In this document: positions 11,086-16,039 of the stretch, piece by piece
Numbering within the stretch: the stretch's first letter is position 1
Layout of the letters: the number at the start of each line of letters is the position of its first letter
Origin: an uncultured Gammaproteobacteria bacterium
GTDB lineage: Bacteria > Pseudomonadota > Gammaproteobacteria > Pseudomonadales > Pseudohongiellaceae
Direction: 5' to 3'
DNA length: 34,668 nt
Assembly: GCA_903887045.1 (NCBI GenBank)
Contig: CAISOD010000206.1
Coordinates: forward strand, 1 to 34,668
Translations under genes and position numbers: made by a program
Notes under the pieces: generated by a model
The model's database searches: none
Told to the model about the DNA's origin: nothing
What the model saw: the letters and a program-made list of their open reading frames with translations, nothing else

Positions 11086-12579
11086 TCAACGCGGATAGAA
11101 CACCGGAATCTTTGCATCGATGTTGACCCACACCGATTTTGGCTCGGTGTATTCATGCATCGCGAAATGCCCCATCTCCCGACCATAGCCGGAATCCTTG
11201 ATACCACCGAACGGCGAACCCGGATGGAAGCGTTTGTAGCAGTTGATCCACACCATGCCGGCTTCCATGTGACGGGCCATCAGGTGGGCACGCTGCAGGT
11301 TGTTGGTCCACAGGCCTCCGCCCAACCCGTAAATGGTGTTATTAGCCATCTCCAGCACCTCTGCGTCATCCTTGAAGGTCGACACGACGACAAAGGGGCC
11401 GAATACTTCTTCCTGACACACGCGATCGTTGATGGTCTTTGCCCGTACCACGGTCGGCTCAACGAAGCAGCCCTTCTGCAATTCCGGATTGGAAGGCGCC
11501 TTGCCACCAAGCAACAGCTCCCCACCCTCTTCCTGCGCGATCTTGCAGAAACCCAGCACGCGATCCTGATGCAGCTTCGATGTCAGCGGGCCCATCTCAG
11601 TACTTGGGTCGAGCGGATTGCCTAGTTTTATCGACGCGGCGAGCTTGAGGAATTTCTCCAGGAACTGATCGGCGATCTTTTCATGCAACATCAAGCGCGA
11701 GCCGGCAATACACGCCTGGCCCTGGTTGTGGAAAATCGCGAATGCCGAGCCATTCACGGCGGCATCGATGTTGGCGTCTTCAAACACTATATTGGCGCCC
11801 TTGCCGCCGAGTTCGAGTTGAATGCGTTTGAGATTGCCGGCAGAAGCCTGAACGATCTTGCGGCCTGTCATTGTTGAACCGGTGAACGACAACTTGTCGA
11901 CACCCATATGCTCCGCCAGATACTGGCCGGCAATATGACCATAACCTGGTATCACGTTGATCACGCCGGCCGGGAAACCCACTTCACGTGCCAATTCTGC
12001 GACCCGCAAGGTCGACAGCGGCGTCAGTTCTGCCTGCTTCATCACCACGCAGTTGCCGGCAGCCAATGCCGGACCCATTTTCCAACTGGTGAACATCAAC
12101 GGAAAGTTCCATGGCACCACTTGTCCCACTACACCGACAGGCACGCGCGTCACATAATTGAGAAACCCGGTTTCGACAGGAATTACCGTGCCTTCATTCT
12201 TGTCTGGCATGCCCGCGAAATAGCGAAATGTTGCTGTCGTGCGCAACACATCCAGGTTGCGGGTGTCGCGGATCGGATGACCGGTATCCAGCGACTCAAT
12301 CAGTGACAAGTTGTCGCGATCTTTCTCGATCGCCTCTGCCAGCTTGCCAATCAACACGCCACGATCCGATGGCGACATCGCGGCCCACGCCGGAAACGCC
12401 TTGCGCGCAGCGGCTACCGCACGATCGACATCCGCGTGTTTGGCTTCACTGACTTTCGCCAGCAGTGTGTTGTCGTAGGGGTTGAACACGTCGAAGGTCG
12501 AGCCATCGAGCGCGTCAACGAATTCGTTGTTGATGAAAAGTCCGGTCTGGAAGTTTGGCTGGCCTGGGGTCGGAGTCAT
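11086..12579 (-). CDS. NAD(P)+-dependent aldehyde dehydrogenase, candidate 4-hydroxymuconic semialdehyde dehydrogenase
   Basis: Full-length member (497 aa) of the aldehyde dehydrogenase superfamily. Catalytic Cys is C290 (NQGQACIAGSR), the general base is E256 (LELGGK), the oxyanion Asn is N158 (PWNFP), and cofactor contacts include K181 and E391 (EVFGPFV). It converts an aldehyde to the acid. The closest general type is the betaine aldehyde/hydroxymuconic semialdehyde dehydrogenase branch. In hydroquinone pathways of the HapCDE/PnpCDE kind a dehydrogenase of this size oxidises the ring-cleavage product to maleylacetate, so its place after two dioxygenase subunit genes suggests that role. The specific substrate is inference. 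A hairpin lies in the 97-bp gap before it. Confidence 0.9.
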   Translation of the reverse strand: MTPTPGQPNFQTGLFINNEFVDALDGSTFDVFNPYDNTLLAKVSEAKHADVDRAVAAARKAFPAWAAMSPSDRGVLIGKLAEAIEKDRDNLSLIESLDTGHPIRDTRNLDVLRTTATFRYFAGMPDKNEGTVIPVETGFLNYVTRVPVGVVGQVVPWNFPLMFTSWKMGPALAAGNCVVMKQAELTPLSTLRVAELAREVGFPAGVINVIPGYGHIAGQYLAEHMGVDKLSFTGSTMTGRKIVQASAGNLKRIQLELGGKGANIVFEDANIDAAVNGSAFAIFHNQGQACIAGSRLMLHEKIADQFLEKFLKLAASIKLGNPLDPSTEMGPLTSKLHQDRVLGFCKIAQEEGGELLLGGKAPSNPELQKGCFVEPTVVRAKTINDRVCQEEVFGPFVVVSTFKDDAEVLEMANNTIYGLGGGLWTNNLQRAHLMARHMEAGMVWINCYKRFHPGSPFGGIKDSGYGREMGHFAMHEYTEPKSVWVNIDAKIPVFYPR

Positions 12580-12608
12580 TTGATATCACAAGGCTAAGTT
12601 AAAAGAAG

Positions 12609-12642
12609 AAAGGGGGCAGACTCAAATGACTCTGACCCCTTT
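12609..12642 (-). repeat. REP-like imperfect palindrome, possible terminator
   Basis: The core arms AGGGGGCAGA (12611-12620) and TCTGACCCCT (12631-12640) pair with one mismatch, and the pairing extends inward to an AA loop with one more mismatch. On the minus strand the stem is followed by a T-rich stretch (TTTCTTCTTTT), so it can act as a terminator after the large dioxygenase subunit gene. The GGGGTCAGAGTCA-type half-site resembles a palindrome I recall scattered in many proteobacterial genomes near Y1 (REP-associated) transposases. No such transposase is in the window. Confidence 0.6.
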
Positions 12643-12676
12643 GATTGTTATGCAGACAGCGGTGGCGCCGGAATTA

Positions 12677-13681
12677 TTACCAGCGCGATGCCGTAATCGG
12701 GAACGGCTCCAACTCACCCTTGGCGTATTTCTCTTCTAGGCCCGGTGTGCCGTTTTCCAACACCATCAACATCGAACGCTTGGGCGAGAACCCCTGATGA
12801 CGGATGTCGGCCGGCATCGCGCACACATCACCGGATTTCATCACAATGCGACCACGCGGATTGCCGGTGTTCTTGTCCTGGATGTTCCAGTGGATTTCGT
12901 CGGTCAACTGGATGAACCACTCATTGCGATCATTGCCGTGGATCACCGGCAGCATATGTTCTTCACTGGTCACACAGCAGATACAAGCGCGTGTGATCGA
13001 GGTGAACGACGGATTCCAGGTCACGTCGGCGCGGGCAATGTGGTCGAACAGATTGAAGGCGTGCACCTGGTCTTCAAAGCCGGGTTCGATTTCGATGTCC
13101 GGCTTGTCGAAACTCATATCGGCAAACGCACGGTTGATCGGATGACCACTGGCATCGGAGCGTGGCGATACGTCGCCTGGCAGGCCCATCATGCGGCGCG
13201 CCGGTTCGAAGCCACGGATCAGCGGACCGGCAGCGTCTTTGGTTTTCGGGCCGAGCGGCGAGCCGGTTTCCATCGGGGCGCGCAGTGGATCGTAGCCTTC
13301 GTTGATCCAGTTTTTCGAAATGGTTTCAAACGCCACGCGCACGTCGTCGGTGTTGAAAGTTTCGAGGAAGTCGACGCCGGTATCACGATGGCCCTTGCTG
13401 TAGGTGCCGGCATAGATATCAACAGTGCCGTAGTGGTTCTGGGTGCCGAACACATCGTCGAAGAAAATCCAGCCGTAGAAAAAGCCCCAACCTATGTCGC
13501 GCACCATGGCGCGCAGGAAACGATCGACTTCGATTGTGTGTACACCCTTCGGCCAGCTGACATGCACGAAGTACATGTCGCGCTCGAAGGTGAAGCTGCC
13601 GAATTGGAATTTGCAGTAGCCCAGCACCGGATCCGGTGCAGAGGCGATGACTTTGACGCTCTGGGTTTGTGCCATGTTCAT
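12677..13681 (-). CDS. Hydroquinone 1,2-dioxygenase large (catalytic) subunit, PnpD/HapD type
   Basis: Protein of 334 aa with no signal peptide. It carries H248-x-N250-x3-E254 (VIHGNDRNEW) and H295 (ADIRHQGFS). The spacings equal those of the iron ligands I recall for PnpD (His256, Asn258, Glu262, His303), with a constant offset of 8. That enzyme class cleaves hydroquinone between C1 and C2 to 4-hydroxymuconic semialdehyde using Fe(II) and oxygen, as a heterotetramer of two small and two large subunits. Length and pairing with a 163-aa cupin-like small subunit 30 bp upstream fit. The ATG at 13681 has AGAGGA about 8 nt upstream. A ring substituent other than plain hydroquinone is possible; a different Fe(II) oxygenase reaction is the main alternative. 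Confidence 0.82.
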   Translation of the reverse strand: MNMAQTQSVKVIASAPDPVLGYCKFQFGSFTFERDMYFVHVSWPKGVHTIEVDRFLRAMVRDIGWGFFYGWIFFDDVFGTQNHYGTVDIYAGTYSKGHRDTGVDFLETFNTDDVRVAFETISKNWINEGYDPLRAPMETGSPLGPKTKDAAGPLIRGFEPARRMMGLPGDVSPRSDASGHPINRAFADMSFDKPDIEIEPGFEDQVHAFNLFDHIARADVTWNPSFTSITRACICCVTSEEHMLPVIHGNDRNEWFIQLTDEIHWNIQDKNTGNPRGRIVMKSGDVCAMPADIRHQGFSPKRSMLMVLENGTPGLEEKYAKGELEPFPITASRW

Positions 13682-13711
13682 GACGTTATCCTCTCAATGG
13701 GGTAAGGGTGT

Positions 13712-14203
13712 TCAGTCGATCACGCAGATTTTTGACCACTTCTCGACGCTCTCCGGGCCGGCGGATGTCTGGATGATGCATACCGACGGCTTGGCAGCTG
13801 ACAACCGGTAGGCAGCGCCTTTCGGCAGCAATACTTCATGGCCGCGACGTGCACGCACGCGGCCCATGCGCTTGCCCTTTGGTTCTCCATTTACTTTGGC
13901 AGCGCCGGCGCTGTGGCTGGGTTTCTGGTCATCGCCCAACTGGAAAAAGGTGAATTCGATTTCTCCGTCCATCACGATGGCGAACTCATCGTGCGGCGCC
14001 GTGTACCAAGGCGATACTCCTTCGGCGCGCACGACTTCCGCACAGTATTCGAGGTTCGATGCCACCATCACCCGTTCGTACGGTTTGGAGTCGTTGGCTA
14101 CTTCAAAGATGTTGGAGAAAGCGTAGTGCTTGAGATCATCGTTGAGATCGATGCTCCCTTTGTCATAAGAGGCCAGTGACCCCATCTTTGTTTTGAAACT
14201 CAT
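13712..14203 (-). CDS. Hydroquinone 1,2-dioxygenase small subunit, PnpC/HapC type
   Basis: Protein of 163 aa (about 18 kDa), cytosolic, with a beta-rich cupin-like core: APHDEFAIVMDGEIEFTFFQLG, then the basic loop GRVRARRGHEVLLPKGAAYRL. The large and small subunits of type II hydroquinone dioxygenases are both cupin-derived, and the small one is 17-18 kDa and supports the active site of the large one. It sits directly before the large-subunit gene with a 30-bp gap. The ATG at 14203 has GAGGGG about 8 nt upstream. Identification rests on size, fold-like pattern and the partner gene rather than on a unique motif. Confidence 0.75.
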   Translation of the reverse strand: MSFKTKMGSLASYDKGSIDLNDDLKHYAFSNIFEVANDSKPYERVMVASNLEYCAEVVRAEGVSPWYTAPHDEFAIVMDGEIEFTFFQLGDDQKPSHSAGAAKVNGEPKGKRMGRVRARRGHEVLLPKGAAYRLSAAKPSVCIIQTSAGPESVEKWSKICVID

Positions 14204-14215
14204 TGCATAACCCCT

Positions 14216-14269
14216 CTTGGTTGTTATTTGTTGCTTGGTTGTTATATGTGGCTTGGTTGTTGTTTATGG
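14216..14269 (-). repeat. Three 18-bp tandem repeats in the dioxygenase leader
   Basis: Three imperfect copies lie at 14216-14233, 14234-14251 and 14252-14269, each starting CTTGGTTGTT on the plus strand. On the coding (minus) strand the leader is thus CA-rich, with repeated AACAACCAAG ending beside the ribosome site of the small-subunit gene. Two exact AANAANAA matches occur on that strand (complements of 14221-14228 and 14257-14264), the motif bound by Hfq/Crc in pseudomonads. Confidence 0.8.
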
Positions 14270-14290
14270 GTTGAATGATAAGGCAAGTCG

Positions 14291-16039
14291 CTACTGTGGC
14301 AAGGCAAACACATACAGTTGGTTATCGATGCCTGCGGTGACATTGCCGAGCAGCCGGCGATGGCCGGCGGTGGTCACCGACGAGCCCGTGCTGGCCGCGA
14401 TGTACTGCCTGCCATTCACCGAAAAGCTGATCGGATAGCCGGTGACAGAGGAACCGAGATTGACTTCCCATAGCACCTCGCCGGTGACCTGGTCGAAGGC
14501 ACGGAAGTTGCCATCGATGTCGCCACCGAATACCAGACCGCCACCGGTAGTCACCATCGACATCGCCGTTCCGTTGGTGTCGAAGGTCCATGCGGTTTTG
14601 CCGGTTTCGGCCGAAATGGCATAGACGGTGCCCAGACTCCTGGCGCCGGGGGCAATCTTGTCGCGGCCACTGGTGCCATACAAAGCTTCCACATCGGGCT
14701 TGTCGAGCGTCACCGTCACGTCGGAGCAGGTATTCTGCAAGCCGTAGTACATCATGTTGGTTTGCGGACTGTAGGCGCCCGCCCACCAGTTCTTGCCGCC
14801 GGTCAGCGCCGGGCAGATTTCCGCCATGTCACCCTTGGCACTGAACAACGCCGCCGGGTTGACGGTGGCCTCGCCGGTTTTACCATCGATGCTTGCGACA
14901 ACATTTTGCAGCACAGTCGGCCGTGCCCACAGGAACTTGCCGGTTTCACGATCAAGCGTGTACACCACACCGGTCTTGCCGGGGATGCCGGTCAGCACTT
15001 TGTAGGTCTTGCCTTGTTCGATATCAGGGCTGATCCACGCCACTTCAGCCGCGTCTGGTGCCACTGCGGTATCCACCAACAGCCGCTCGAACGGATGGTC
15101 GAGATCCCAATGGTCAACCAGGTGTTGGTAGTGCCAGACGATATGGCCGTCGTCGGGATCAATCGCCAGTGTCGAATTGTGATACAGGTATTTGTTGTCG
15201 TTGCCGGCCAACAGGAATTTCGGTGCAGGTGCGGTGACCGAGGTACCCATATAGATCAGATCAAGCTCGGGGTCGTAGCTTGGCATCATCCAGGCGCCCA
15301 CGTGCCAACGTGATTCCCACGGCAGTCCGCCCCAGGTGTCTTCGCCCTCCCCCGGCTTCTGGATCGTATTGAGTCGCCACAGTTCCTTGCCGGTGGCCGC
15401 ATCATGGGCGGTGATCACACAAGCATCCGGACCGGCCGCGGGCATGCAGCCGCGGCCGGAAATAGCCTTGCCGTTGATTACAACCGCACCGGAGCTTTGC
15501 TGCGCCGGATGGGTACGGTAATCGAGAATCAACGTTGCCCACTTCTCGGCACCAGTGTTCGCATCGATACCGATCAGGTAGTCATCATTGCTGGTGTAGA
15601 TGATGGTATCGCCATACAGCGCCAGAGCACGTTCGGTTTCAGTGGCTGGAATATAGTCGCCGAGGTCTTCCGGCATCTGCCGGCTGAAACGCCAGAGTTC
15701 GTTGCCGGTGGCCGCATCGTGCGCGGTGATGACATCGCCCGGGTGTGGCATGTAAAGCTTGCCATCGTGCACCAGCGGCGTGCCTTCCTGCACCGAACCC
15801 TTGTTGAGCGGCAGGCTCCATGCCAATTGCATGTCCTTCACATTGGTGCGGTCAATCTGGGCGAGCGGGCTGAAGCCCCACGAGTTCAGTGTACGGCGCC
15901 ACATCAGCCAGTCACCATCGGCCGGTTGCTCCAGTAACGCATCGGTGACGGGAACGGTCTGGGACACCACTGGCAACGCGAAACCACTGACGGCAAATGC
16001 CAGCAGCCCCCCCTGCAGGAAGTGATTCCGGTAGGCCAT
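14291..16039 (-). CDS. Periplasmic PQQ-dependent dehydrogenase (quinoprotein beta-propeller)
   Basis: The product is 582 aa from the ATG at 16039, which has AGGGGA 7 nt upstream; an upstream frame to 16072 lacks this. A signal peptide (about 1-27) predicts export. Propeller W-motifs of the type AxDAxTGxxxW recur (for example near 106-116, 159-167, 212-221 and 476-484), and GGKNWW lies at 414-419. No CxxCH heme site is present, so electrons must go to a separate cytochrome c. The catalytic Asp region reads W311-D312-L313-D314. The second Asp is the one associated with lanthanide use in XoxF-type enzymes, but the loops that usually give Glu and Asn ligands are different (GTSVTAP in place of GTGNP). 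Cysteines C198 and C207 may pair. Substrate unknown; an aromatic alcohol or phenol feeding the downstream dioxygenase is inference. Confidence 0.87.
   Translation of the reverse strand: MAYRNHFLQGGLLAFAVSGFALPVVSQTVPVTDALLEQPADGDWLMWRRTLNSWGFSPLAQIDRTNVKDMQLAWSLPLNKGSVQEGTPLVHDGKLYMPHPGDVITAHDAATGNELWRFSRQMPEDLGDYIPATETERALALYGDTIIYTSNDDYLIGIDANTGAEKWATLILDYRTHPAQQSSGAVVINGKAISGRGCMPAAGPDACVITAHDAATGKELWRLNTIQKPGEGEDTWGGLPWESRWHVGAWMMPSYDPELDLIYMGTSVTAPAPKFLLAGNDNKYLYHNSTLAIDPDDGHIVWHYQHLVDHWDLDHPFERLLVDTAVAPDAAEVAWISPDIEQGKTYKVLTGIPGKTGVVYTLDRETGKFLWARPTVLQNVVASIDGKTGEATVNPAALFSAKGDMAEICPALTGGKNWWAGAYSPQTNMMYYGLQNTCSDVTVTLDKPDVEALYGTSGRDKIAPGARSLGTVYAISAETGKTAWTFDTNGTAMSMVTTGGGLVFGGDIDGNFRAFDQVTGEVLWEVNLGSSVTGYPISFSVNGRQYIAASTGSSVTTAGHRRLLGNVTAGIDNQLYVFALPQ

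Follow-up and report, generated by a model that had tools for sequence, protein, structure and literature searches.

The closest described counterparts of the genes considered here are the pnpCDE(F) and hapCDIH operons (Pseudomonas sp. WBC-3 and others), a PnpC-PnpD-aldehyde dehydrogenase cluster on the Paraburkholderia terrae plasmid pPT365 and, for a fourth gene, the type I pyrroloquinoline quinone (PQQ) alcohol dehydrogenases represented by 4CVB, DepA (7WMK) and sorbose dehydrogenase (4MH1). We analysed a 34,668-nucleotide stretch of DNA from an uncultured gammaproteobacterium (hereafter the window, meaning the whole of that stretch), in which genes of these kinds form a four-gene block. 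The block shares with the pnp and hap operons the order PnpC, PnpD, PnpE, the presumed metal ligands and the residues tested in PnpE, and differs from them in having no adjacent reductase, monooxygenase or regulator and in carrying a quinoprotein gene in front. The same PnpC-PnpD-aldehyde dehydrogenase order is seen in pPT365, where a maleylacetate reductase and an intradiol dioxygenase follow; no quinoprotein is listed in the 15 kb of that plasmid shown, in a collection whose gene table is incomplete. We read the block, with a probability of about 0.78, as a PnpC-PnpD-PnpE module whose remaining steps are supplied from a second contig of the same genome (C116), and the quinoprotein as a neighbouring periplasmic PQQ alcohol dehydrogenase. 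The PnpCDE module is already known, the block being a further case of it; the flanking quinoprotein is the variant part. The four genes are:

16039 to 14291, minus strand: PQQ-type periplasmic alcohol dehydrogenase, type I, of the 4CVB/sorbose-dehydrogenase kind, 582 amino acids, ATG at 16039 (PF01011; 4cvb, 7wmd, 4mh1, 9m2c)
14203 to 13712, minus strand: hydroquinone dioxygenase small subunit (PnpC/HapC type), 163 amino acids (4zxa_A, 5m21_A)
13681 to 12677, minus strand: hydroquinone dioxygenase large subunit (PnpD/HapD type), 334 amino acids (PF18191; 5m21_B, 4zxa_W)
12579 to 11086, minus strand: gamma-hydroxymuconic semialdehyde dehydrogenase (PnpE type), 497 amino acids, with C290 and E256 (4go4)

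The PnpC-PnpD-PnpE genes and the later steps

Contig C206, which holds the window, belongs to a 3.39 Mb assembly (genome G000; 313 contigs, 99.7% complete), and the four open frames are intact on the minus strand, reading from the quinoprotein through PnpC and PnpD to the aldehyde dehydrogenase. Their family matches are not due to chance. The large subunit matched the N-terminal domain family PF18191 (PnpCD_PnpD_N) with an expect value (E) of 5.3e-46 and the large subunits of solved hydroquinone dioxygenases with E 1.8e-111 (5m21_B) and 2.2e-111 (4zxa_W). The original prediction had recognized in this protein the spacing H248-x-N250-x3-E254 plus H295 of the PnpD class, and this was borne out: the alignment to 4zxa_W is free of gaps from residue 213 to 315, spanning all four residues, and none of the four varies among the 19 sequences aligned, that of the window being one of them. 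An offset of +8 places them on residues 256, 258, 262 and 303 of 4zxa_W, which we take to be the four iron ligands. An AlphaFold model of PnpD built from 19 sequences reached a mean predicted local distance difference test score (pLDDT) of 54.9; residues 178-320 fell below 50, leaving the catalytic (cupin) half unmodelled, and the gap-free alignment to 4zxa_W takes the place of a structural superposition. The small subunit had no Pfam or NCBIfam match and was recognized from 4zxa_A (E 1.2e-48) and 5m21_A (E 8.5e-42); it is 49% identical to its P. terrae homologue.

For the aldehyde dehydrogenase, 4go4 (PnpE) was the best match named for the reaction (E 8.3e-224), an aldehyde dehydrogenase of no stated function, 4o6r, scoring slightly above it. 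Nine residues of PnpE were probed by mutation in the PnpE study (PMC4225490), namely the catalytic C281 and E247 together with N149, F150, F154, W157, H275, I282 and F447. By hand count on the 4go4 alignment, all nine are kept in the window dehydrogenase, as C290, E256, N158, F159, F163, W166, H284, I291 and F457. The protein is 69% identical to the dehydrogenase of the Paraburkholderia plasmid cluster, and its second-best relative inside the genome is 42% identical. The two-subunit dioxygenase and the aldehyde dehydrogenase thus stand where they had been predicted, with intact frames and matches to 4zxa_A, 4zxa_W and 4go4. What the sequence shows is family membership, the retention of presumed metal-ligand and pocket residues, and the synteny described below; the activities given here are what we infer from it. 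On this footing, the assignment of PnpC and PnpD as a two-subunit hydroquinone dioxygenase and the predicted hydroquinone cleavage step are well supported by sequence, and so is the oxidation of the semialdehyde, the first two steps of a hydroquinone route that had been proposed for the block. In the cytosol, the iron dioxygenase would open hydroquinone or a substituted hydroquinone to hydroxymuconic semialdehyde, which the NAD-dependent dehydrogenase would oxidise to maleylacetate or an analogue.

The conservation of the block was surveyed in a single scan of species genomes, which reaches close relatives only and returned 35 loci, or 36 with the window. Gene neighbourhoods were called with a codon-usage open reading frame caller, except for L037 and L049, which were covered by tblastn only. 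PnpC lies directly upstream of PnpD in 36 of 36 loci, window included. Fifteen of the 36 have a PnpD at least 86% identical, and a PnpE-type dehydrogenase follows PnpD in 14 of these. Another 20 loci, all alphaproteobacterial by title, have a PnpD of 69-76% identity. Relatives of PnpD at any distance were found in 18 of 57 genomes searched, among them 9 of 11 from the genus of the window (g1; the sister genus and another genus are referred to as g2 and g3).

The original prediction also noted the absence of a maleylacetate reductase or regulator nearby, which holds for the block and not for the genome. The sole full-length maleylacetate reductase match of the genome lies outside the window block on C116, where a second PnpC-PnpD pair is followed by the reductase; this protein is closest to 3jzd, 3hl0 and 3w5s and is 50% identical to the reductase of the Paraburkholderia plasmid. 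The same contig carries a 3-oxoadipyl-CoA thiolase (PcaF), a fused 3-oxoacid CoA-transferase (PcaIJ-type) and a PcaR-type regulator; thiolase, both transferase halves and regulator all scored above curated cut-offs. C116 would therefore supply the remaining steps through its maleylacetate reductase, CoA-transferase and thiolase, and the window block plausibly makes maleylacetate for these enzymes, the intermediates passing, as we infer, between the two loci. A third PnpCD pair, on C122 (L084), adjoins a 107-amino-acid reductase fragment (L084:8458-8781) and, judged by eye, a Rieske-like protein; G000 thus holds three PnpD copies (window, C116 and C122). In the g3 loci L092 and L093, PnpC, PnpD, aldehyde dehydrogenase and reductase stand together. 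In another locus of the window's genus, L086, gene clusters and inspection by eye placed full-length reductase, thiolase and CoA-transferase genes beside PnpCD.

Four observations weigh against this account of the module. PnpD was not found in 2 of the 11 g1 genomes (73% and 88% complete). The C116 reductase scored below the cut-off of every NCBIfam model. The close relative L029 has no dehydrogenase in the 1.2 kb downstream of PnpD, which is all the sequence available there. Finally, 13 of the 20 alphaproteobacterial loci carry, within about 1 kb of PnpCD, another aldehyde dehydrogenase that is only 32-35% identical; four of the remaining loci have the PnpE-type dehydrogenase and three have neither type. 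Given this different dehydrogenase, the PnpD clade may have a substrate other than plain hydroquinone, or another next step.

The quinoprotein and its cofactor

That the block opens with a quinoprotein gene, as first proposed, was confirmed by a match to PF01011 and by matches to 9m2c, 4cvb and 7wmd at E ~1e-114 or better, and the gene order PQQ-PnpC-PnpD-aldehyde dehydrogenase is kept in relatives. By sequence and by fold, the protein is nearest to 9m2c, 4cvb and 7wmd/7wmk, with homology over its full length, and 4mh1 is likewise related. A structure model (mean pLDDT 69.5) returned the same entries first in a fold search, with a TM-score of 0.79 to 4cvb. Identity to the 4CVB, DepA and 4MH1 kind is ~32-36% in the fold alignments, and a Ketogulonicigenium plasmid protein is 38% identical. 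The signal peptide is putative, judged by eye. An identity as methanol dehydrogenase or XoxF was dropped, as chains of the 4CVB type score far higher. In the NCBIfam methanol/ethanol PQQ family, the quinoprotein reached 325 of the 480 bits required, a cut-off that may exclude the 4cvb subfamily; in the 'empty quinoprotein' group, it reached 250 of 650 bits.

4CVB accepts many alcohols and sugars. DepA, 91% identical to 4CVB, is reported to oxidise a mycotoxin (PMC10975547). Thus, the family does not point to a phenol. The window protein would most likely oxidise an alcohol or sugar group on compounds that the cell encounters in its habitat; phenolic glycosides and side-chain alcohols are possible examples.

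Where 4cvb and 7wmd have W-D-S-E, the window protein reads W311-D312-L313-D314, and D312, L313 and D314 do not vary in any of the 10 sequences aligned, among them those of the window and L057. In an ocean survey (PMC11996626), a D-x-D pair is treated as a lanthanide mark, and a D-x-D clade of sorbose dehydrogenases is described with 4CVB as nearest structure; a few Acidobacteria and Gammaproteobacteria are reported to carry many copies in one genome. The quinoprotein resembles the clade in its D-x-D, in having 4CVB among its three nearest structures and in the many copies in its genome, and it is probably of the lanthanide sort by this motif. G000 holds 35 matches to the quinoprotein, 21 places reaching E 1e-27 or lower (counts that include the window's own gene and contig-end pieces), and the five other g1 genomes, 99-100% complete, have 27 to 34 matches each, the weak ones of which may be other propellers such as BamB.

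Synthesis of the cofactor is another matter. In the samples searched, pqqC was absent from 11 of 11 g1, 6 of 6 g2 and 5 of 5 g3 genomes, and across the family it was above cut-off in 24 of 99 members. Above-cut-off pqqE was found in 4 of 37 genomes, none of them g1, with weaker matches in all 37 and in all 14 control genomes. At E 1e-20, PqqU of the Escherichia coli type was found in 2 of the 37 genomes and in none from g1 (31 of 47 candidates scored in G000). With many quinoprotein matches and no pqqC in the genus, PQQ would have to be scavenged. Scavenging is reported to be common among non-producers, with uptake by diffusion allowed for in some groups (PMC12124388). The quinoprotein could thus be loaded with PQQ taken from outside.

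Linkage of the quinoprotein to PnpCD

A gene-neighbourhood survey had been proposed as a check on whether the quinoprotein stays with the other three genes, and its outcome was divided. Among the 15 loci with a PnpD at least 86% identical, 12 have at least 1.4 kb of sequence upstream (L028, L032 and L035 end too soon and were left out of the count), and in 10 of the 12 the quinoprotein lies upstream of PnpC. The ten loci all belong to g1 and g2; L031 (PnpD 90%) and L036 (PnpD 86%) have no quinoprotein upstream. At 69-76% PnpD identity, the quinoprotein was found in 0 of the 20 alphaproteobacterial loci, L055 having only 0.8 kb upstream, and at 50% it is loosely linked in one. This last case, the distant metagenome-assembled genome (MAG) L057, has PnpC-PnpD-aldehyde dehydrogenase adjoining a gene of the tannase/feruloyl esterase family, and an intradiol dioxygenase, a maleylacetate reductase and a 55% identical quinoprotein 4.8 to 6.9 kb from PnpCD-aldehyde dehydrogenase in a run on the opposite (minus) strand, the quinoprotein being 6.9 kb off. 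Two erythrobacter-type genomes, L040 (11034-12965) and L056, carry a different quinoprotein between PnpD and the PnpE-type dehydrogenase; its best NCBIfam match, below cut-off, is to the glucose/quinate dehydrogenase family. In the alphaproteobacterial loci L041 and L050, such another quinoprotein lies 5 to 7 kb away.

Away from PnpD, three g3 genomes hold six copies of the quinoprotein (55-56% identical) among unrelated genes on contigs other than that of PnpD. Of 369 genomes sampled across the class, only the window's own and G387 gave a match at E 1e-120, and G387 has a 63% identical homologue and no PnpD match. The surroundings are conserved as well: RapA is the neighbour of the quinoprotein in all 7 of the g1 loci that extend far enough, window included, and in g2 the flanks hold PreP in L034 and YlqF and others in L033 and L034. 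Since the region is largely syntenic in g1 and g2, the ten linked cases are not ten events, and the quinoprotein beside PnpCDE is a lineage-specific arrangement.

What the quinoprotein does beside these genes may be accounted for in several ways. The original prediction made the four genes one route, in which the periplasmic quinoprotein would oxidise an aromatic alcohol or a substituted phenol and so deliver a hydroquinone for cleavage in the cytosol. Its cleavage and semialdehyde steps stood up in the sequence comparisons; a feeding of the pathway by the quinoprotein would be a predicted role, and the region around the gene is largely syntenic anyway. The adjacency in 10 of 12 close relatives speaks for a single route, as do the lack of a terminator-like hairpin in 10 of 10 quinoprotein-PnpC gaps (lenient scan), the L057 homologue in the company of a reductase and an intradiol dioxygenase, and the other quinoprotein between PnpD and dehydrogenase in L040 and L056. 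However, the gene is missing from the alphaproteobacterial relatives, from L031 and from L036, its six g3 copies lie on contigs without PnpD, G387 has a homologue and no PnpD match, and a PQQ alcohol dehydrogenase alone does not turn a phenol into hydroquinone; we regard this route as unlikely. The quinoprotein may instead be a bystander, one of many in its genome, that stays by PnpCD through conservation of the region between two genera. The syntenic flanks, the 35 matches in G000 and the occurrences away from PnpD in g3 and G387 are all consistent with this, whereas in L034 the four genes are together with no RapA separating them from PreP, both L033 and L034 have a different gene after the dehydrogenase than the window does (L033 ending just before the quinoprotein), and L057 presents a separate association. 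We hold the bystander account tentatively, at somewhat less than even odds, and as a role for the quinoprotein consider it a little more likely than membership in the pathway. Quite improbable, to our mind, is a stronger version of that membership, in which a lanthanide-type quinoprotein was recruited to a hydroquinone module in a genus with no PQQ synthesis and some 20 or more quinoprotein-like genes, and would oxidise phenolic alcohols or glycosides in the periplasm to para-diphenols for PnpCD, making phenolic breakdown reliant on external PQQ and lanthanides.

Two further alternatives concern the substrate and the cofactor. The substrate of the dioxygenase might be a substituted para-diphenol, derived from phenolics of plants or algae, rather than hydroquinone itself, so that no adjacent maleylacetate reductase is needed. 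This would suit a genome with three PnpD copies, of which the C116 copy already has a reductase, and relatives whose loci adjoin a gallate dioxygenase (L045), the tannase/feruloyl esterase gene (L057) or an intradiol-dioxygenase-like gene (L031); it is nonetheless rather doubtful, as the retention of all nine tested PnpE residues in the dehydrogenase argues for the ordinary semialdehyde. The quinoprotein might also never be loaded with PQQ here and be an empty or differently charged beta-propeller. The PQQ genes missing from g1, the lack there of an E. coli-like PqqU at E 1e-20, and the sub-threshold match to the 'empty quinoprotein' family would fit such a protein. Against this, the score was higher for the PQQ alcohol dehydrogenase family, also below cut-off, the aspartate of the W-D motif is kept, and scavenging by non-producers is described as common (PMC12124388); we consider an unloaded protein very unlikely.

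Our preferred reading, a PnpCDE module completed from C116 with the quinoprotein as neighbour, places one more genus of uncultured Gammaproteobacteria among the likely hydroquinone degraders. Were the quinoprotein part of the route, aromatic ring cleavage would rely on an imported cofactor and the substrate range of lanthanide-type quinoproteins would widen; were it not, the locus would still caution against reading a pathway from gene adjacency where a genome is rich in quinoproteins. In the open-access literature, which leaves most subscription journals outside coverage and is not proof of novelty, we found no paper joining hydroquinone dioxygenase with PQQ, none joining hydroquinone dioxygenase, quinoprotein and maleylacetate, and none joining maleylacetate reductase, PQQ-dependent and gene cluster.

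Transcription signals, repeats and flanking genes

Three further features were recorded in the gaps of the block:

12566 to 12639, no strand assigned: 18-bp inverted repeat element, arms 12566-12583 and 12622-12639, with the dehydrogenase start codon in its edge
12609 to 12642, minus strand: imperfect hairpin with a T-rich tail between PnpD and aldehyde dehydrogenase (inverted repeat I2), terminator-like, weak
14275 to 14302, minus strand: sigma-70-like promoter match before PnpC, TTGCCA-16-TATCAT, weak

A further difference from the pnp and hap operons is a hairpin before the dehydrogenase, seen in the block and its relatives to an extent that depends on the scan. Under lenient settings, 10 of the 14 gaps examined between PnpD and the dehydrogenase had a hairpin followed by a T-rich tail, each unmatched in 60 shuffles and that of the window being the weakest, and none was found in L032, L033, L034 or L035. 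A strict scan (loop of at most 8 bases) retained 4 of the 14 (L026, L030, L031 and L036) and did not find that of the window; nor was the window hairpin among the 5 sites returned by a standard terminator scan of the block, against 5.3 expected. Taken with the hairpin-free gaps between quinoprotein and PnpC, the pattern suggests that quinoprotein and PnpCD may share a transcript and that, in most of these genomes, transcription of the dehydrogenase may be in part independent. The four-gene block may thus not be one simple operon.

The score of the promoter match before PnpC was reached in 3 of 200 shuffles of its gap, and such matches were not enriched across the region overall (4 against 2.8 expected). 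Across the window and its relatives, promoter scores upstream of PnpC stood clearly above shuffles in 3 of 10 gaps, those of the window, L026 and L039 (L024, 17 of 200). As only these three did so, we make no claim of a promoter belonging to PnpC itself. Shortly ahead of the PnpC start, the sequence AACAACCAAG occurs three times at a spacing of 18 bases (window 14216-14261, minus strand); no such repeats were seen by eye in the gaps of nine relatives. In Sphingobium xanthum, PnpC adjoins a gallate dioxygenase that scores above its curated cut-off (L045:7897-9264).

The 18-bp inverted repeat resembles a small repetitive or mobile element. Its exact 13-base motif was present in 3 of 151 loci, all of them copies of the window's own site, and an insertion may have supplied the present start of the dehydrogenase.

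Elsewhere in the window, RapA is divergent from the quinoprotein, and YlqF, BtuR, PreP, an NAD-dependent DNA ligase and ZipA were the further genes checked. The 14 named loci with a PnpD at least 86% identical are all MAGs, their titles reading Gammaproteobacteria in 12 cases, Nevskiaceae in one and Klebsiella pneumoniae in one. The last of these, L030 (CAMDML010000056.1), has the same block with a 91% identical PnpD and the same RapA neighbour, and looks mislabelled. Isolate names among the close-relative MAGs suggest lakes or wastewater as the source of some of them.

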